Shown: positions 22,749-32,038 of the stretch, one piece after another | How positions within the stretch are numbered: position 1 is the first letter of the stretch | Layout of the letters: every line of letters starts with the position of its first letter | NCBI RefSeq assembly: GCF_007671685.1 | Contig: NZ_VCNL01000001.1 | Location: 124,001 to 188,000, forward strand | Length of the DNA: 64,000 bases | Reading direction: 5' to 3' | From: Halorubrum salsamenti | Lineage (GTDB): Archaea > Halobacteriota > Halobacteria > Halobacteriales > Haloferacaceae | Made by a program: the position numbers and the translations under genes | Notes under the pieces: generated by a model | What the model was told of the DNA's origin: nothing | What the model saw: the letters and a program-made list of their open reading frames with translations, nothing else | Database searches by the model: none

Positions 22749-25700
22749 TCAGTCGTCGCTCGACGCCTGCTCGGTCGCGTCGGGCGCGGAGCCGGGGACG
22801 GCGGCGGCGGGTTCCGGCGGCTCCTCGCGCACGTCGGCGCCCGTGCCCTCGGCGATGACCTCGGCGTAGGCGTCGGGGAAGACGCGGACGAAGTCGTCGA
22901 GCGCGGCCGTCCAGTCGTCGAGCAGCTCGGCCGCGCGGTCGCTGTCGGTGTAGGCGTGGTGGTTCTCGACGAGCCGGCGGAGCATGCGCTCGTCGGACTC
23001 CGCTAAGGTCTCCGAGACCGATACCATCCCGCGGTTCACGCGGTCTGCGAGCCGGTCGTCCGGGTCGTACACGTACGCGACGCCGCCCGACATCCCGGCC
23101 GCGAAGTTCCGCCCGGTGTCGCCGAGCACGGCGACGACCCCACCGGTCATGTACTCGCAGCCGTGGTCGCCGACGCCTTCGACGACCGACTTCACGCCGG
23201 AGTTGCGGACGCCGAACCGCTCGCCGGCGACGCCGTTGACGTAGACCTCGCCCGCGGTGGCGCCGTACAGCCCGACGTTGCCGGCGACGACGTTCTCGGC
23301 GGGGTCGTAGCCGGCCTCCTCGGGCGTGTTGATCACGATCCGACCGCCGGAGAGCCCCTTGCCGAGGTAGTCGTTGGCGGCGCCGGACAGCTCCATCGTG
23401 ATCCCGGGCGCGAGGAACGCGCCGAAGCTCTGGCCCGCGTAGCCGTCGAACCGACAGGTGACGGTGTCGTCAGGAAGCCCGTCGCCGCCGTGCTCGGAGA
23501 CGACCCGGTTCGAGAGGGTCGCACCGATCGCGCGGTCGACGTTCTCCACGTCGCGGGTGAGCGCGACTGGCGCACCGTCCTCGATGGCCGGGCTCGCCTC
23601 CTCGATCAGGTCCCAGTCGAGCAGTTCGTCGATGCCCGGGTGGTCCTGCTCGCGGGTCTTCGTCCGGGCGTCGCCCGCGGGCTCGGCGATGACCGCCGAC
23701 AGGTCGAGGTGTTTCGCCTTCTCGTGGTCGGTCTCGCGCTGGGAGAGCAGTTCGGGCCGCCCGATGAACTCCTCGACCTCGCGGAACCCGAGCTCGGCCA
23801 TGAGCTCGCGGAGCTCCTGGGCGATGAACGTCATGTAGTTGATGACGTGGTCCGGCTGGCCGGGGAAGCGCTGGCGGAGGTCCTCCCGCTGGGTGGCGAC
23901 GCCGACCGGACAGGTGTTCTCGTGGCACTGACGGGCCATCACGCAGCCGGCGGTGACGAGCGAGGCGGTGCCGAACACGTACTCCTCGGCGCCGAGCGCG
24001 GCTGCGACAGCCACGTCGCGGCCGGTCTTCATCCCGCCGTCGGCCGTCACGCGGATGCGGTCACGCAGGCCGGTCGCGCGGAGCATCTGGTTCGTCTCGG
24101 CCAGTCCGAGTTCCCAGGGGAGCCCCGCGTTCTTGATCGACGTCTTCGGGGAGGCGCCCGTCCCGCCGTCGTGGCCGGAGACGTGGACCACGTCGGCGTT
24201 CGCCTTCGCGACGCCGGCCGCGATGGTGCCGATGCCGGCCTCGGAGACCAGCTTCACGTTGACGTCGGCGTCGGGACTCGCGGCCTTCAGGTCGAAGATC
24301 AGCTGCTTGAGGTCCTCGATCGAGTAGATGTCGTGTTGCGGCGGCGGCGAGATGAGCCCGACGCCGGGGGTGGAACACCGGACGTGCGCGATCATCTCGT
24401 TGACCTTCTTCCCGGGGAGGTGGCCGCCCTCCCCGGGCTTCGACCCCTGCGCCATCTTGATCTGGAGCTCGTCTGCGCTCGCGAGGTACTCGGAGGTGAC
24501 GCCGAACCGACCCGAGGCGACCTGCTTGACGTTACACTCCTTCTCGGTCCCGAACCGCTCCGGGGGCTCGCCGCCCTCGCCCGTGTTCGACTTCGCGCCG
24601 AGCCGGTTCATCGCGATCGCGTTGTTCTCGTGGGCCTCCGGCGAGATGCTCCCGAGGCTCATCGCAGCGGTCGAGAAGCGCTCGACGATCGACTCGACCG
24701 GCTCGACCTCCTCGATCGGCACGGGGTCGCGGTCGGACTCGAACTCTAAGAGCCCGCGCAGCGTCTGTAGCTCCTCGGACTGGTCGTTGACCAGCTCCGC
24801 GAACTCCCGGTACTGCTCGTAGTCGCCGCCGCGGACCGCCTGCTGGAGCGTCCCGACCGTCTGGGGGTTCCAGCCGTGTTTGACCCCCGACGAGCGGTGT
24901 TCGTACTCGCCCGTGGTCTCCAGTTCGGGGTCGGAGCCGAACGCCATCGCGTGGCGCGTCCGGAGGTCGCCCTCGATCTCCCCGATCCCGATCCCCTCGG
25001 TGCGGATCTCGGTCCCCTCGAAGTACTCGGCGACGAATTCGGAGGAGAGCCCGACGGCCTCGAAGATCTGGGCGCCCTGGTACGACTCCATCGTCGAGAT
25101 GCCCATCTTCGCCATCGTCTTGAGGAGGCCGTCCTCCAGCGCGTGCCGGTAGGCGGCCAGCGCCTCGTCCTCGTCGGCGCCGTCGGGGCCGGCGACGACG
25201 TCGGCGATGGAGGCGTACGCGAGGTACGGGTCGACCGCGTCGGCGCCGTAGCCGACCAGCGTCGCGAGGTGGTGGACCTCGTGCGGCTCGCCGGACTCGA
25301 CGACGAGCCCCGCGCGGTTGCGTAGCCCGTTGCGCACGAGGTGGTGATGGACCGCACCGGTCGCGAGCAGGCTCGGCACCGCGAGCCGGTCCGGCCCGAC
25401 CGCCCGGTCGGAGAGGACCACGGCGTCGGCGCCGTCCCGGATGGCTGTCGCGGCGTCCTCGCGGATCCGGGTTACGGCGTCGACGAGCGAGTCGTCGCGG
25501 TCGTACGTCACGTCGACAGTCACGGAGGTGAATGACGCGGCGTCCGGCTCGTCCCCGTCTCCGTCGGTCGGCGCGCGTTCGCCCGGGCCGGGGAGTTCGC
25601 GCATCGCTGTCGTCTCCGCGTCGGTGAGTACCGGGGTGTCGGAGACGATCTGCTCGGCGTGTTCGGGCGTCTCGTCCAGCAGGTTACGCTGGTTCCCGAT

Positions 25701-27458
25701 CCGGGTCTCCAGCGAGGTGACGAGCTCCTCGCGGATGTAGTCGATCGGCGGGTTCGACACCTGCGCGAACAGCTGCTTGAAGTAGGTGAACAGCGGTCTA
25801 TCGACGTCGGCGAGCACCGACAGCGGGGTGTCGTCGCCCATCGAGCCGACCGGGTCCTTCCCGTCCTTCGCCATCGGCTCGACGAGGTGGTTCAGCGAGT
25901 CGGTGGTGTAGCCGAACGCGGCCTGATGGGCGCGGACGGTCGGCTCGGTCTCGGCGTCGTCATCGTCCGGCACGACCTCGCTGCCGTCGGAGTCCGAACC
26001 GATCCCGGCGGCGATCCCGTCCTCCTCGACGAGCTCGTCGAGGTCGACCTGTCGCTCGTCCACCCACTCGCCGTACTTCTCGTCGGTGAGGTCGTCGAAC
26101 ACCTCGTCGTCGGGGACGATACGCCCCTGCTCGGGGTCGGCGACGAAAATCTCACCGGGCTGGAGCCGGCCGCGGCGCGTCACGTCCGCCGGCTCGGTCG
26201 GGAGCGCGCCGACCTCGCTGCCGACGACTAGCCGGTTCTCCTCGGTCACCTCGTACCGGCAGGGGCGGAGCCCGTTGCGGTCGAGGACGCCGGCGACGCG
26301 GTCGCCGTCGAAGCCGATGACGAGGGCGGGGCCGTCCCACGGCTCCACGAGCGAGGCGTGGTAGTCGTAGAAGTCCGCGCGGGCCCGATCCATCAGGTCG
26401 TCGTCGCGGAACGCCTCCGGGATCAGCATCCGGAGGGTGTGCGGGAGGTCGCGGCCGGCCTGAAGGAGGAGTTCGACCGCGTTGTCGACGCTCGCGGTGT
26501 CCGACTGGTTCGGGTCGTCGATCACCGGCTTGATCGTGTCGAGCTCCGCGCCGAACGCCGGGTGATCGAGGTCGTTCTCGCGGGCGCGCATCCAGTTGAC
26601 GTTCCCGCGGATCGTGTTGAACTCGCCGTTGTGGACGATGTTGCGGTACGGGTGTGCCAGATGCCACGCGCCCAGCGTGTTCGTCGAGAAGCGGGCGTGG
26701 ACTAAGGCGACGTGGCTCGCGAAGCGCTCGTCGGTCAGGTCGGGGAAGTAGCCGGCGAGCTGAGAGCCCTTCAACAGCCCCTTGTACACGACGCGCTGGC
26801 GGTCGAGCGAGCAGACGTAGAACCGGCCGGCGCCGTCGACCTCCGACACCGCGTTCTCGATCTCGCGGCGGGCGGCGTACAGCGCGCGGTCGAAGCCGAG
26901 CGTCTCCGGGTCGGCGTCGTCCGGGCGGGTCTCCTCGTTGGTGAACCGCTCGGCGAGGCCGGCGCCCTCGACGGGCGCGACGAACAGTTGGGCGACCTCC
27001 GGCTCGGAGTCGAGCGCGGTCGCGCCCAGGTCCGCGTTGTCCGTCGGGACGGAGCGCCACTCCAGGACCTCCAGCCCGTACACGGAGAACACCTCCGCGA
27101 TGACGTCGTGGATCTCGGCCTGCACGCTCGGTTCGGTCGGCATGAACACCGAGCCGACGGCGTACTCCTCGGGCAGGTCGGCGTCGACGACCTCGCGGAA
27201 GAAGCCGTCGGGGCGTGCGACCATGATGCCGGCGCCGTCGCCGGTGTCCTCCTCGGCGCCCGTCGTGCCCCGGTGTTCGAGGTTCTCGAGCAGTTCGACG
27301 GCGTCAGTGACCGTCTCGTGGCTCGGATCGTTGTCGAGGTCGACGATCCCGCCGATCCCGCAGTTCGAACGCTCGTCCGTTACCGTCGCAAGCCCCCCAC
27401 CGTGGCCCGAGAGATCTCGCTCCGATACCTCCCGGGTGTTACTACGTGGCTCGGTCAT
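22749..27458 (-). CDS. gltB: Glutamate synthase, large subunit
   Basis: A 1569-residue enzyme converting glutamine and 2-oxoglutarate to two glutamates. Cys33 in SNCGIGGIVDL is the N-terminal-nucleophile glutaminase cysteine, with GDGAGIM and ARFSTNT following; the 32 residues before it would be a cleaved propeptide. The central and FMN-binding domains (about 450-1200) include GHDGGTGASP and the [3Fe-4S] cysteines in GCVMARQCHENTCPVG near 1170. The C-terminal third is the GxGxG beta-helix (GTGxG-type repeats around VVAGNVGLYGATAGEVYVNG). No gltD small subunit is nearby, so it may use ferredoxin (inference). It ends in a short acidic tail. TATA-like CTTTAAC at 27480-27486 on the minus strand, 22-28 bases from the start. 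Confidence 0.95.
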   Translation of the reverse strand: MTEPRSNTREVSERDLSGHGGGLATVTDERSNCGIGGIVDLDNDPSHETVTDAVELLENLEHRGTTGAEEDTGDGAGIMVARPDGFFREVVDADLPEEYAVGSVFMPTEPSVQAEIHDVIAEVFSVYGLEVLEWRSVPTDNADLGATALDSEPEVAQLFVAPVEGAGLAERFTNEETRPDDADPETLGFDRALYAARREIENAVSEVDGAGRFYVCSLDRQRVVYKGLLKGSQLAGYFPDLTDERFASHVALVHARFSTNTLGAWHLAHPYRNIVHNGEFNTIRGNVNWMRARENDLDHPAFGAELDTIKPVIDDPNQSDTASVDNAVELLLQAGRDLPHTLRMLIPEAFRDDDLMDRARADFYDYHASLVEPWDGPALVIGFDGDRVAGVLDRNGLRPCRYEVTEENRLVVGSEVGALPTEPADVTRRGRLQPGEIFVADPEQGRIVPDDEVFDDLTDEKYGEWVDERQVDLDELVEEDGIAAGIGSDSDGSEVVPDDDDAETEPTVRAHQAAFGYTTDSLNHLVEPMAKDGKDPVGSMGDDTPLSVLADVDRPLFTYFKQLFAQVSNPPIDYIREELVTSLETRIGNQRNLLDETPEHAEQIVSDTPVLTDAETTAMRELPGPGERAPTDGDGDEPDAASFTSVTVDVTYDRDDSLVDAVTRIREDAATAIRDGADAVVLSDRAVGPDRLAVPSLLATGAVHHHLVRNGLRNRAGLVVESGEPHEVHHLATLVGYGADAVDPYLAYASIADVVAGPDGADEDEALAAYRHALEDGLLKTMAKMGISTMESYQGAQIFEAVGLSSEFVAEYFEGTEIRTEGIGIGEIEGDLRTRHAMAFGSDPELETTGEYEHRSSGVKHGWNPQTVGTLQQAVRGGDYEQYREFAELVNDQSEELQTLRGLLEFESDRDPVPIEEVEPVESIVERFSTAAMSLGSISPEAHENNAIAMNRLGAKSNTGEGGEPPERFGTEKECNVKQVASGRFGVTSEYLASADELQIKMAQGSKPGEGGHLPGKKVNEMIAHVRCSTPGVGLISPPPQHDIYSIEDLKQLIFDLKAASPDADVNVKLVSEAGIGTIAAGVAKANADVVHVSGHDGGTGASPKTSIKNAGLPWELGLAETNQMLRATGLRDRIRVTADGGMKTGRDVAVAAALGAEEYVFGTASLVTAGCVMARQCHENTCPVGVATQREDLRQRFPGQPDHVINYMTFIAQELRELMAELGFREVEEFIGRPELLSQRETDHEKAKHLDLSAVIAEPAGDARTKTREQDHPGIDELLDWDLIEEASPAIEDGAPVALTRDVENVDRAIGATLSNRVVSEHGGDGLPDDTVTCRFDGYAGQSFGAFLAPGITMELSGAANDYLGKGLSGGRIVINTPEEAGYDPAENVVAGNVGLYGATAGEVYVNGVAGERFGVRNSGVKSVVEGVGDHGCEYMTGGVVAVLGDTGRNFAAGMSGGVAYVYDPDDRLADRVNRGMVSVSETLAESDERMLRRLVENHHAYTDSDRAAELLDDWTAALDDFVRVFPDAYAEVIAEGTGADVREEPPEPAAAVPGSAPDATEQASSDD

Positions 27459-27789
27459 GCCACACACTCTGGATCCAGGAGTTAAAGGTATGACCCTGAT
27501 AGGGGTAGGATCCATAGTACACACATTAGGGAATATAAGGTAATTATTCATAAGGCGTGTGTTCCAATGACACAATTCGTGTTTGATCAGAGAATACCCG
27601 AAACTGAGTAAACAACCGGATCGTTATCTGGGATGTCCGAGACGTTAGTGGTCGAATTCGGAATACTACTGAGTGATCGTCAACCCGGCGGCTCGAGGTC
27701 ACGTCGAGAGGCACCAGCGCCGGAGACGGTAGCGGCGAGAATGGGGTGAGGAATACGCGCGCAAATGAGCGCCTCGCCCCGAACCTCGG
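27459..27789. promoter_or_regulatory. gltB upstream region, AT-rich with small palindrome
   Basis: A 331-base gene-free stretch. Next to the gltB TATA is CCCT-GAT-AGGG (27494-27504), directly upstream of the promoter in minus-strand sense, and GGATCC occurs on both sides of the promoter. Further out (27515-27570) are AT-rich tracts including a second TATA-like CTTATATTCCC and an ACACAC / GTGTGT inverted pair. This looks like a regulated promoter; the regulator is unknown. The remainder to 27789 shows nothing recognisable. Confidence 0.4.
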
Positions 27790-27957
27790 TCACTCGCTCA
27801 GCGGAGTGAACGTCCCGTTAATGTCCCACTCGTGGATGCAGTAGACGTTGCCGGGCTCGTCGTCGATCTGCCACCCGTCGGCGTCGTCGTCCCACCGCTC
27901 TTCGCGGCCGCACAGCTCGCACTTGCGCTCCCGTGGCGGGGTAATGGTGACGCTCAT
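27790..27957 (-). CDS. Short zinc-binding haloarchaeal protein
   Basis: A 55-residue protein: an N-terminal MSVTITPPRERK, CELCGREERWDDDADGWQ with a C-x2-C pair, and CIHEWDINGTFTPL with a further Cys and His, enough to bind one zinc. The CIHEWDINGTF ending recurs in small haloarchaeal proteins of unknown function. The ATG at 27957 is preferred over that at 27984 because a TATA-like CTTTTGC at 27981-27987 would then sit about 27 bases upstream. Confidence 0.65.
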   Translation of the reverse strand: MSVTITPPRERKCELCGREERWDDDADGWQIDDEPGNVYCIHEWDINGTFTPLSE

Positions 27958-28028: not shown

Positions 28029-31000
28029 TCAGTGGCCCCGCTGTCTCCGGGTCGCAGCCAGAAGCGCCAGCGCGAGAGCCGCAAGCGACTCCAGCGGACC
28101 GAATCCGGGAACGTCTTCGGCGGTCACCCGGATCGGCGCGTTCTCGTAGGTCGGTGTCTCCCGATCTGAGTCGTCGGTCTCGTCGCTTGCGGTCTCCGAA
28201 CCGTCGTCTCCCGTGGCGGCAGCCTCGGCGTCGATCGACGGAGTGCCGTCCTCGGTTGCGTCGGTCGCGTCGGTCGCGTCGGTCGCGTCGGTTCCTCTGG
28301 ACACCCCGTACTCCTCGACCGCTGTCGGCGTCGACACGGCGATCGGTCCGTTCAAATGCGGAGTCCGGCGCTCGGCGTTCGGACGAGTTCCGAACCCGAC
28401 GCCCCGAGCGGACTCGGTCCGTTCGTCTCCCTCGCCGTTGCTCTCCGTGTCTCCCGTTGCACCTCCCGTAGAACCGCCTGTTCCGATGTTACCACCGCCG
28501 GTTCCGCCCCCGCCTCCACCACCGGTGATGGGATCTCCGGACGCGATCCGCTCGCGGCCGTCGCCCGACGAATCGCCCGACGAATCGTCCGACGAATCGC
28601 CTGCATCGGTGCCGTCGAACGCGACGGTTGCAGTCGCGCGGTGGCCGTCCGGGGAATCCGACGCGGCCTCCCGGAGGCGATCGTCGGTGACGCGGAATTC
28701 GGCGGTGAACTCCTCGCCGGGCTCCGGCTCTCCGTCGGTCGGGAGTGCGTCGTCGCCGTCGCTGACCACGTAGAGTCCGGTCTCGTCGACGTGGACCGTC
28801 GAGTTGCGCGGCGTCTCGCCGAGCGCGTCGCTTGTAGTTCGTCCGTCGTCGTCCGCCGTCGATCGAACGCCGAACTCGATCCCGTCGAGGCGGTCGAGGT
28901 CGCCGCCCGTCTCCGGCGTGGCGTTCCGCGCCGCGGGCAGCCCGGTCAGTCCGGACGCGTTCACAGCGTAGACCACGGTGTCGTTCGCGGCGATGCGTTC
29001 TGACCGCGAGAGAGCGTCGCCCTCGATGGCATCCCGTACTGCCGCCGCGCTCCCGAGATCGGACCGGTCCGCCCCTACCCCCGCGTAGGTGGCGAGTCCG
29101 TTCGTCGACCGTCGCACGAGCGTTACGGTCGCGTTGTCGCTCGTCGTTGCGATCCCGTGTTCCGACCGAACCGCGATCTCATAGGTCCCCGGTGAGAGCG
29201 TCCCGTTTCTCTCCGACGTGGTGACCGACTCGATCGACGCTCCCGGTCCAGTCACCGCGACGCTCTCGTTCAAAGACCCGTTTGCCGCCGTATACGTATT
29301 GAAGTTGAGCGTCGTCTGTCCCTTCTCTGGTGTTGCGAGTTCGACGGTGGCGGCTGTGGTGTTGGTGTTTGTATTGTTGAGGTATACATTAGTAGTATTA
29401 TATGTTGAGGAGATTTCAATAGGCAGAATATGTCCTGAGGATACTGATTCAGTTGATACTGGAAGGTTCGATACGACATCTTTCTCTTTTAATACAGTCG
29501 CTGTTTTGTTACTGGCTTTACTAGAACCGATATCTCTGAATTCTATTTTGTAGTTTCCACTCTCAGAAACATTTATTATTTTATTAGTCTTGTCAGTGGC
29601 ACCGATAGTAAATGTCTTCCTCTTCACTTCCGAACTTTTGTAAACTTTAGCGGTGATTTCCCGAGTTACTTGGTCTGATTCAAATTTGGAAACTATGCCA
29701 TTTTCGACTGACGTGGTTGGTATATTTGGTGATAAGGATGTATTGACGATCTGGACTTGTGTCTGATTGATTTTTGTCTCTGATTGAATTACGTACTCTC
29801 CTTCTGAAAGAATTGTTGTATTGATGATTCTGATATTCCCACTTTTATTGATCGGGATTTGTTGTGCATCTTGTTCTTCTGAAGATAGTGATATGGTAGC
29901 AGTCTCACTTGTATTTAGACCAATATACGAGCCCTGAGATGCAGTTATATTTGTCTTGTTTTCAATAGTATGGGTGATTCGGCGAGGAGAGTATTTCTTT
30001 TTAGCAAATGTGCTTTTGTAGTGTTTTGATTCAAGATTATCGATGGAAATCTCACTTATATGGGGAAATTCTCTACTAGTATTTGATTCTGTACCATTTA
30101 ATAAAACATCAACTCGCTTTCCATTCATATTGTACTGTTTAGTATCTTTACTGAGATTGATCGTTAATCTGGATTGATCAAAAAATAGTATAGATATATT
30201 TCCCTCCTCTGTGCTTATTTCTGTATTAAATGAAATTGATAGAATAGATCTAGTGTTGTTTTGTACTGAAGAGTTGTCAAAATAATGTATTGGCTTTTGA
30301 ACTGCTTCTATTAGGACTGGGAACCGCACAGATCGGTTATCAGCTGCATGGATAATATCTGTATTTGGTTCTGTTTTTCCTGGATGAACTGTTGCTGCGA
30401 GTTCGATTTCACCACTTACATTCTCACTGGTAACATTGATTTTCTTTTTGTTACCTTGTGAACTCCCAAGTTGTTTGACTAATTCTCCACTCTTAGATCT
30501 CTTCCAAATCACCACATAATCTGTGCTATTGATCAGTTTTAATTCTTCAAGAGAAATGTTTCCGTTCCTGTATGTGTCATTCTGGATACTAACCTCCGCA
30601 GGAGAAACTATGCTAAATTGAATATATTTTTCAGAAAACCCCTGCTCTAAACTATATTCAACTTCTTTGTCAGATTTAGATAATTTATTGTTGTATACAC
30701 TTACATTCCTCGTATCTATATTTGATATTTTTATATCAAATCCAGACCCATCTGGTATGGACTTGTTTACAATTATCGTAGCGTTCTCTTTATTTTCGTT
30801 TTTTATATACACATCTGAACCGGCCACATCTTCTCGATCAGGTACAGTATACGATGAATTTGCATCATCCAGTTTAGCACCTTTGTTAATCAGATCTCCC
30901 ACTCGAATTTTGACATCCTTATTTCCATCGCGTGTTTCAATCCCACTAATTATTTGTGTCTCATTAGTTCCTACTCTAATGTCATCTACCCCTCCTACAC

Positions 31001-31118
31001 TCCAAACTGCCCCATTCACGGTCACTACCCCAATAACGGAGAGAACACCGAAGGAGAGAACGAGGGTACAGATCAACACACACCGAATTGTTGTTCTCCG
31101 ATCCATTATCGTGTCCAC
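28029..31118 (-). CDS. Large PGF-CTERM surface glycoprotein, compositionally mosaic
   Basis: A 1029-residue exported protein. Residues 1-35 are a signal peptide (a second start at 31106 gives a shorter one). About residues 36-590 are a Ser/Thr/Asn-rich beta-type region with more than 20 N-glycosylation sequons (NVS, NGT, NKT and similar), encoded by AT-rich DNA. From about 595 the DNA returns to high G+C and the protein shows domains like haloarchaeal BGTF/DUF7827 surface proteins, a Gly-rich linker (~865-890), Thr/Asp/Ala repeats, and the tail VPGFGPLESLAALALALLAATRRQRGH: a PGF motif, hydrophobic helix and basic end. This is an archaeosortase A substrate; artA is at 41337. Probable role: cell-surface structure or adhesion. 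The abrupt composition change suggests a transferred or exchanged N-terminal segment. Confidence 0.82.
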   Translation of the reverse strand: MDTIMDRRTTIRCVLICTLVLSFGVLSVIGVVTVNGAVWSVGGVDDIRVGTNETQIISGIETRDGNKDVKIRVGDLINKGAKLDDANSSYTVPDREDVAGSDVYIKNENKENATIIVNKSIPDGSGFDIKISNIDTRNVSVYNNKLSKSDKEVEYSLEQGFSEKYIQFSIVSPAEVSIQNDTYRNGNISLEELKLINSTDYVVIWKRSKSGELVKQLGSSQGNKKKINVTSENVSGEIELAATVHPGKTEPNTDIIHAADNRSVRFPVLIEAVQKPIHYFDNSSVQNNTRSILSISFNTEISTEEGNISILFFDQSRLTINLSKDTKQYNMNGKRVDVLLNGTESNTSREFPHISEISIDNLESKHYKSTFAKKKYSPRRITHTIENKTNITASQGSYIGLNTSETATISLSSEEQDAQQIPINKSGNIRIINTTILSEGEYVIQSETKINQTQVQIVNTSLSPNIPTTSVENGIVSKFESDQVTREITAKVYKSSEVKRKTFTIGATDKTNKIINVSESGNYKIEFRDIGSSKASNKTATVLKEKDVVSNLPVSTESVSSGHILPIEISSTYNTTNVYLNNTNTNTTAATVELATPEKGQTTLNFNTYTAANGSLNESVAVTGPGASIESVTTSERNGTLSPGTYEIAVRSEHGIATTSDNATVTLVRRSTNGLATYAGVGADRSDLGSAAAVRDAIEGDALSRSERIAANDTVVYAVNASGLTGLPAARNATPETGGDLDRLDGIEFGVRSTADDDGRTTSDALGETPRNSTVHVDETGLYVVSDGDDALPTDGEPEPGEEFTAEFRVTDDRLREAASDSPDGHRATATVAFDGTDAGDSSDDSSGDSSGDGRERIASGDPITGGGGGGGTGGGNIGTGGSTGGATGDTESNGEGDERTESARGVGFGTRPNAERRTPHLNGPIAVSTPTAVEEYGVSRGTDATDATDATDATEDGTPSIDAEAAATGDDGSETASDETDDSDRETPTYENAPIRVTAEDVPGFGPLESLAALALALLAATRRQRGH
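28259..28293 (-). repeat. 9-bp tandem repeat (Asp-Ala-Thr codons)
   Basis: Four near-identical units of TCGGTCGCG encode a DATDATDAT stretch in the surface glycoprotein just before its sorting signal. Unit length is a multiple of three, so copy-number slippage would lengthen or shorten the linker without a frameshift. Confidence 0.8.
28560..28600 (-). repeat. 12-bp tandem repeat (Ser-Ser-Asp/Gly codons)
   Basis: Three units of TCGCCCGACGAA-type sequence encode the SSDDSSGDSSGD linker of the surface glycoprotein, ahead of its Gly-rich stretch. In-frame length variation is possible here too. Confidence 0.75.
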
Positions 31119-31369
31119 GGTTGCTAGAGCGGCGGCTATCGGACTCTCAGACCGCGGATCGCGGCGGCACGAGTCCGTACCGCAGTCTCACAACGCGAGG
31201 TGGTCGCATTCGGCGCGATTAGTTATAAATGGGTTGCGGACCGCGAAGCTTCCGTTCGCAGAAACGTCTTCGTTGAAGGCGATGCAGTCGTGCGATCTCG
31301 ACCGCCATCCTCAGCCCGGATCACAGGCTGTACGGGTGAAAACTGCCTTAAAAAGGCAAAAACGGTCGA

Positions 31370-32038
31370 CTAGTGTTCGACCTGTTCCATCAGGGACAGC
31401 AGTGAGTCGGAGGCGTCGACGGCGGTGGGATGGACGCCGACGAGTGCGATCACGTCCTCCTTGTGTTGGACCGTCCCGACGTACAGGAACACCGGAACGT
31501 CTTCGACCGACCCACTCTGCCCGTCGCCGGCGTCGACCTCCGCGTCGACGGTCGTTTCGAGCTTTGAGATCTCTACCTCCTCGCCGAGGATGGTGCGGGT
31601 CTTCGACCCTCGATCCTCGATGTCGCTCGTCTCGATATCGGTGCCTTCGCCGGTGATACCGCGCTGATCGATCTGCTCTAACAACCGCCGGATCAGCTCC
31701 GTGTCGTCCGCGCGGACGAGGGGGTTGACCGACTGCCCGCCCACCGACGCGTTGGGGGTGCTCGCCACGAACAGCGCCGACCCGTTCTCGGAGTTCTCGT
31801 ACCCGGCGGCCCACGTCGTCGCGGACAACTGCGCGTTCACGCCGGCCATTTCGAACTCCTCTTCGATGTTGAACGACTTCGGCTCCTCGCCCTCGTACCC
31901 TGCTTCGGAGGCTGCCGAAGACGGGACCCTAGCCGGGTCCGCGTCGAACTCGAAGTTGCCGTCCTCGCCGCCGGTACACCCGGCGATCGCGACGGATGTC
32001 GATGCGGCGATCGCCGCGAGCAGTCCGCGTCTATGCAT
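31370..32038 (-). CDS. Tat-exported lipoprotein (DUF6517-like)
   Basis: A 222-residue lipoprotein. The N-terminus MHRRGLLAAIAASTSVAIAGC combines a twin-arginine signal with a lipobox (IAGC, Cys21), so it is probably Tat-exported and anchored to the outer face of the membrane by a lipid. The rest (FEFDADPARVPSSAASEAGYEGEE; YENSENGSALFVASTP; VFLYVGTVQHKEDVIALVGVHP) matches a haloarchaeal lipoprotein family of unknown function that I associate with DUF6517. It lies 251 bases upstream of the surface glycoprotein on the same strand. Confidence 0.75.
   Translation of the reverse strand: MHRRGLLAAIAASTSVAIAGCTGGEDGNFEFDADPARVPSSAASEAGYEGEEPKSFNIEEEFEMAGVNAQLSATTWAAGYENSENGSALFVASTPNASVGGQSVNPLVRADDTELIRRLLEQIDQRGITGEGTDIETSDIEDRGSKTRTILGEEVEISKLETTVDAEVDAGDGQSGSVEDVPVFLYVGTVQHKEDVIALVGVHPTAVDASDSLLSLMEQVEH

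Follow-up and report, generated by a model that had tools for sequence, protein, structure and literature searches.

Long-lived balanced polymorphisms that persist across species are classic in eukaryotes, where they are known for the MHC, mating types and self-incompatibility. Fungal mating-type idiomorphs and Plasmodium MSP1 each have two ancient non-recombining alternatives per locus, which are shared among species. In archaea, no two-type case of similar, genus-wide extent is known to us, and a literature search for one found none.

Haloarchaeal S-layer glycoproteins (Haloferax csg, PDB 7ptp; Hlac_0412 and Hlac_2976, which were implicated as S-layer genes in H. lacusprofundi, PMC10544981) have a signal peptide, tandem beta domains, sequons, a Thr/Ser-rich stalk and PGF-CTERM. 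In Halorubrum ezzemoulense, homeoalleles or homeocassettes (PMC11078007) are exclusive divergent variants that occupy one position between near-identical core flanks and are exchanged via flanking homology. They are multi-gene islands of 35-70% identical homologues within one species, with an average G+C of 51-70%. In Haloquadratum walsbyi, the variability of surface-gene islands is ascribed to virus pressure and recombination (PMC4535781).

Here we describe a Halorubrum surface glycoprotein gene, the exposed half of which is an AT-rich cassette that exists as two alternatives, A and B. The encoded protein has all the listed parts of an S-layer glycoprotein, but the gene is a paralogue distinct from theirs and lies at the gltB locus, and true S-layer genes have no sharp composition break. 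The locus resembles the homeocassettes of the same genus in exclusivity, position, flanks and mode of exchange. On the other hand, its cassette is half of one gene, is found genus-wide, has its own AT-rich composition and comes in two types without demonstrable homology. The H. walsbyi islands are alike in surface-gene variability, but they comprise many genes with many alleles, and no conserved intragenic composition boundary is reported for them. As with idiomorphs and MSP1, two ancient alternatives extend across species, whereas the present case is archaeal and lies inside one ORF, and a link to mating or immunity would be speculative.

The gene was found in a window of 64,000 nucleotides of Halorubrum salsamenti DNA, the whole stretch that was analysed. 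Its parts and neighbours are as follows.

22749..27575, minus strand: gltB, glutamate synthase large subunit, the linked phylogenetic marker (synteny)
27790..27957, minus strand: 55-aa Cys-containing protein, conserved downstream neighbour (synteny)
28029..31118, minus strand: PGF-CTERM surface glycoprotein ORF, S-layer glycoprotein paralogue (translation, profile search, orthologues, synteny)
28041..28124, minus strand: PGF-CTERM sorting/anchor motif (TIGR04126, 22.4 bits against a cut-off of 24.5)
28125..28823, minus strand: stalk, Gly/Ser/Thr/Asp-rich, length-variable, high G+C
28824..29384, minus strand: C1 beta domain of the resident anchor, conserved and GC-rich (divergence tracks gltB)
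29303..29369, minus strand: 3' cassette boundary, residues ~583-605 (GC3 and A-B homology shift together, in both types)
29335..31035, minus strand: AT-rich exchangeable cassette of type A, exposed and sequon-rich, with predicted tandem Ig-like beta domains, GC4 27%
31016..31106, minus strand: signal peptide segment, GC3 ~66% (A-B identity falls to background at residues ~22-34)
31223..31229, minus strand: putative TATA-box-like TTTATAA upstream of the glycoprotein gene (read by eye)
31370..32038, minus strand: DUF6517 protein, conserved upstream neighbour (synteny)

Because orthologues begin at the ATG at 31106 (MARRTTIRC...), this is likely the true start rather than the GTG at 31118, giving a protein of 1025 aa instead of 1029 aa. 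The protein is laid out as a signal peptide, a beta-rich ectodomain, a Gly/Ser/Thr/Asp stalk and a PGF-CTERM anchor. The TIGR04126 match (E 7e-5, 22.4 bits) is slightly below the formal cut-off, but the PGF motif, transmembrane helix, basic tail and signal peptide of a PGF-CTERM archaeosortase substrate are all present, and the motif is retained in most orthologues. A Pfam search gave zero domains above cut-off, and a sequence search against solved structures gave no meaningful match. AlphaFold models of A and B contain tandem beta domains at low to moderate confidence (mean pLDDT 72.6 and 71.3), and the cassette ends near a low-confidence linker ahead of the C1 domain.

Homologues at E<=0.001 occur in 50 of 52 Halorubrum genomes, and the order of DUF6517, glycoprotein gene, small protein and gltB is retained across the genus. 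In one genome (G005, 99% complete), gltB and the small gene are present, but the glycoprotein gene and its DUF6517 neighbour are missing beside gltB, and thus the glycoprotein is dispensable in at least one lineage. In H. californiense (G006) and H. ezzemoulense DSM 17463 (G011), the orthologue frame stops before any PGF-CTERM tail. The cause is apparently a frameshift within the GC-rich stalk, either a sequencing error or a real loss. The frame is interrupted by TAG in H. yunnanense (G051). Draft contigs unusually often stop in or at the gene (G003, G013, G014, G021, G030, G034, G039, G040, G043, G044), and the gene may be under-reported or split in annotations.

Base composition changes sharply inside the ORF, with G+C going from ~70% to ~35%. 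By sliding window, G+C is 67-72% at 28050-29250 and 30-43% from ~29400 to ~31000, and it is 57-66% upstream of the low-GC tract. A maximum-likelihood two-segment fit of third positions placed the break at codon 578 (~29385), with a log-likelihood gain of 123. From codons 36-578 to the codons beyond, GC3 rises from 28% to 78% and GC4 from 27% to 75%; GC1 and GC2 are likewise low in the cassette. A second composition boundary lies at residues ~22-34 (31052-31016), immediately past the signal peptide. An earlier note on this DNA, made from the sequence alone, had described the sharp break, the minus-strand ORF, its acidic C-terminal half and the PGF-CTERM tail, and all of these were confirmed. 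The break position that it gave, near 29335, is central within the genus-average transition at residues ~583-605 (29369-29303). Its sequon-rich N-terminal part was also borne out, with 27 sequons in the 543 residues of the low-GC tract; type A orthologues have 4.1 sequons per 100 aa, where their composition would predict 1.9. The composition break is not chance. In a ~0.87 Mb sample of this genome, only two other tracts longer than 1 kb have a G+C of about <=40%. They lie at G000:C12:338.2-340 kb, an island with a gene of possibly defence-related role, and at G000:C15:201.5-203.2 kb, a glycosyltransferase island adjoined by a transposase-like gene.

The break is shared by the genus. It falls at the same codons in 37 of 37 near-full-length Halorubrum orthologues, with GC4 at about 21-39% before it and 67-93% after it, and partial orthologue sequences are consistent with the same break. 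In G041 and G049 the gene is located away from gltB and the break is still present, indicating that the break is a property of the gene, not of the place. The earlier note took the low G+C as a mark of recent foreign DNA, and named orthologues across the genus with the same low-GC N-terminus as the observation that would refute this. Such an N-terminus was found at the same position in every orthologue, and the claim was dropped. No full-length cassette was found outside Halorubrum among ~390 genomes of the order. Searches by tblastn gave no relatives in plasmids (full A and B proteins) or in phages (A cassette only). Pattern scans of IMG/VR with A1 and A2 also gave none, with a single peptide pattern per type, which can miss weak relatives.

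The low-GC half is of two types. Among 48 typed Halorubrum genomes, one per species, A is carried by 21, including that of this window, and B by 27 (p 0.47 against 1:1). Full-length copies of both types were found together in 0 of the 48, so that exclusive variants occupy an equivalent position, as homeoalleles do. Wherever position could be checked, the gltB locus is shared by both types, except in G041 and G049. Identity between A and B is ~12%, equal to background, and a profile comparison (hhalign, with models from 11-15 sequences) gave a probability of 15%. With two such alternatives, trans-species and about equally frequent, the locus is idiomorph-like. Downstream of the cassette, the C1 domain of G000, which carries type A, is 76% (G036) and 74% (G024) identical to B-type domains and 73% (G027) and 71% (G016) identical to A-type ones. 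These comparisons indicate a GC-rich anchor that is common to both types. The divergence of its C1 domain follows gltB, and the anchor is vertically inherited.

A swap is seen directly in G046 (A) and G015 (B), the nearest pair of unlike type. Their flanking DNA is mostly 93-99% identical; identity drops to 32-50%, around a background of 35-45%, from about +100 to +1750 and then returns to 90-96%. At each end of the cassette, and in both types, composition changes where A/B homology does. The earlier note had proposed exchange of the exposed domains onto a resident anchor. The proposal holds in a changed sense: exchange as a unit, with its boundary at the composition break, is seen in this pair, whereas recent foreign import was not supported.

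Type follows neither species tree examined. On the gltB tree the type label changes 12 times (9 forced by well-supported branches) against 12.8 for shuffled labels, and on the unlinked rpoB' tree 15 times (7 forced) against 15.6. Because these changes match random labels, type is uncoupled from species phylogeny. In G022 and G038, rpoB' is one base short and matched in two frames at the same model position, by either sequencing error or a real frameshift. On the other hand, 100%-supported clades matching deep gltB clades occur in the tree of A as well as in that of B, and therefore both types predate the major Halorubrum clades and have been carried in parallel, with type switching mostly inside clades. 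Between Atlit-26R and H. distributum, the block from DUF6517 to the cassette is mostly 94-100% identical, with 82-92% in the stalk and lower identity upstream of the block, which suggests recent exchange. Divergence correlates with that of gltB at 0.76 for cassette A, 0.51 for cassette B and 0.87-0.89 for the anchor, and the cassette diverges faster than the anchor. These results show a trans-species dimorphism of ancient date, the types of which are swapped inside clades.

The gene appears to be a paralogue of S-layer genes and not an S-layer gene itself. Its NF041335 (S-layer glycoprotein) score is 33.4 bits, far from the curated cut-off of 1100 bits, which is passed by no Halorubrum gene, known S-layer genes included. 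In H. lacusprofundi (G017), Hlac_0412 and Hlac_2976 correspond to C2:431 kb and C1:235 kb, as inferred from locus tags, and the glycoprotein gene is at C2:901 kb. Identity with the S-layer gene, initially taken from the NF041335 match, was rejected since these genes lie elsewhere with normal G+C. In their counterparts and in other S-layer-like genes, G+C is likewise normal and GC3 dips mildly at the 5' end. A tandem pair of S-layer-like PGF-CTERM genes of normal G+C at G000:C15:216-226 kb probably represents the true S-layer genes of G000. The 54% identity between the S-layer proteins of H. lacusprofundi ACAM34 and R1S1 (PMC6011602) was considered as an A/B swap and set aside, as it more likely concerns Hlac_0412. 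By Foldseek, the Haloferax S-layer structure 7ptp ranks first among the PDB matches of B (E 8e-13) and 24th among those of A (E 8e-10), at low TM-scores that indicate likeness of domain type only.

Synonymous sites in the cassette are close to stationary in composition. Cassette fourfold sites are saturated, at median p of 0.65 and 0.67 against a saturation value of 0.71, and they show strand symmetry in base frequency (A.36, T.34, G.15, C.16). In every amino-acid box, the fraction of codons ending in G or C is 0.20-0.43 and near-equal in A and B, and cassette GC4 has no dependence on host GC. Parsimony-polarised changes imply equilibria of 44% and 48%. In simulation, a stationary 30% GC appears as ~41% at this divergence, whereas drift toward a genome-like 90% appears as about 0.66-0.75. 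The cassette is thus near its own equilibrium of ~30% GC, with no amelioration toward the genome. Slow upward drift is possible, as 44% and 48% are slightly above the stationary simulation.

We consider it probable, with moderate confidence, that A and B are ancient exclusive cassettes kept by balancing selection and swapped through their flanks, and that the force raising GC has been lost locally. A and B would coexist within species; the genomes compared were one per species. Negative frequency-dependent selection on surface recognition would maintain both, the agent being most likely viruses and less likely competitors or mating partners. S-layer proteins are virus receptors in Halorubrum (PMC10544981; PMC8875312), and surface glycosylation influences haloarchaeal mating (PMC5496957). 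By analogy, the virus or competitor pressure on this protein that the earlier note suggested is plausible. Homologous recombination in the signal-peptide/upstream and C1 flanks would replace the whole cassette, and recombination within it would be blocked because the types lack homology with each other and members of one type are highly divergent. The GC-raising force, biased gene conversion or another recombination-linked process, would then be absent in the cassette, leaving it to drift near the AT-rich equilibrium set by mutation in haloarchaea. In mutation accumulation, equilibrium GC is ~20% in Hbt. salinarum, and Hfx. volcanii is AT-biased too (PMC9997560). The case for a recombination-linked force is that the two halves of the gene share expression, translation and location and differ only in the alignability of alleles.

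Several points count against the compositional part of this mechanism. Same-type recombination and conversion among polyploid copies are expected to persist. With a 4:1 AT mutation bias and GC4 of 0.94 outside, halving the force of biased conversion would bring GC4 only to ~0.66, and the observed 0.29 needs a force ~8-fold weaker by the same arithmetic. In one experiment, the direction of gene conversion in Hfx. volcanii had no GC effect (PMC8223754). True S-layer genes are hypervariable too, yet they have only the mild dip.

The main rival, which we regard as unlikely but worth serious weight, is selection that directly favours AT-rich DNA or codons ending in A or T, independent of recombination and acting through DNA shape, chromatin binding, mRNA structure or slow co-translational export. 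It would account for a low GC that is stationary, equal in A and B and maintained at the other locus in G041 and G049. However, the bias is uniform over codon boxes, with A~T and G~C, which is not the pattern of selection on particular codons or on one strand, and its boundary follows A/B homology rather than a functional signal. Moreover, where relatives of the cassette domains occur in other genes and genera, their G+C resembles that of the host (61-68% in GC-rich hosts), and the fold therefore does not demand AT-rich DNA.

A more speculative and rather improbable idea is that the locus is an archaeal compatibility locus, at which A and B would govern self/non-self recognition in fusion-based mating (or mate, vesicle or virus fusion) and the AT-rich tract would be a scar of suppressed recombination between the types, comparable to what is found in eukaryotic mating-type regions that do not recombine.

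Local hypermutation, such as transcription-linked cytosine deamination, could diversify the cassette and lower its GC, consistent with its faster divergence than the anchor's. We find this very improbable, as deamination of one strand predicts asymmetry whereas fourfold frequencies are symmetric, and both boundaries fall at homology breaks.

Recent import of the exposed domains from a low-GC organism, virus or plasmid would explain the extreme composition contrast and altered codon usage, and surface genes are known exchange hotspots (PMC6011602). It is nevertheless rejected as a recent event and given hardly any credence, because the break is genus-wide, cassette trees track host clades and synonymous sites are saturated and near stationary; full-length relatives are also absent from the collections searched outside the genus. 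A distribution both genus-wide and genus-restricted, with a near-stationary composition, is not that of a recently acquired island. An ancient low-GC origin of both cassettes from a remote donor outside the collections compared is possible.

That a sequon-rich, Asn/Ile/Lys/Ser/Thr-rich ectodomain makes its DNA AT-rich through the amino acids it requires is suggested by the near-identical amino-acid composition of A and B, their sequons at twice expectation and their low GC1 and GC2, but as a sole cause it is refuted by fourfold-degenerate sites equally AT-rich and by GC-rich relatives, leaving it next to no probability beyond a contribution that it could make at positions 1 and 2.

Under the reading of ancient exclusive cassettes exchanged through their flanks, this gene is a natural experiment, within one ORF, on the forces that hold haloarchaeal DNA at high GC. 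Two composition regimes share a single transcript, translation and genomic place and are split exactly where the alleles cease to align, which bears on whether biased gene conversion or selection determines prokaryotic G+C. A practical warning follows that an intragenic GC break is no evidence of recent transfer. In this gene, the break in the DNA marks a long-lived two-way polymorphism of the cell surface, not recently acquired foreign DNA.
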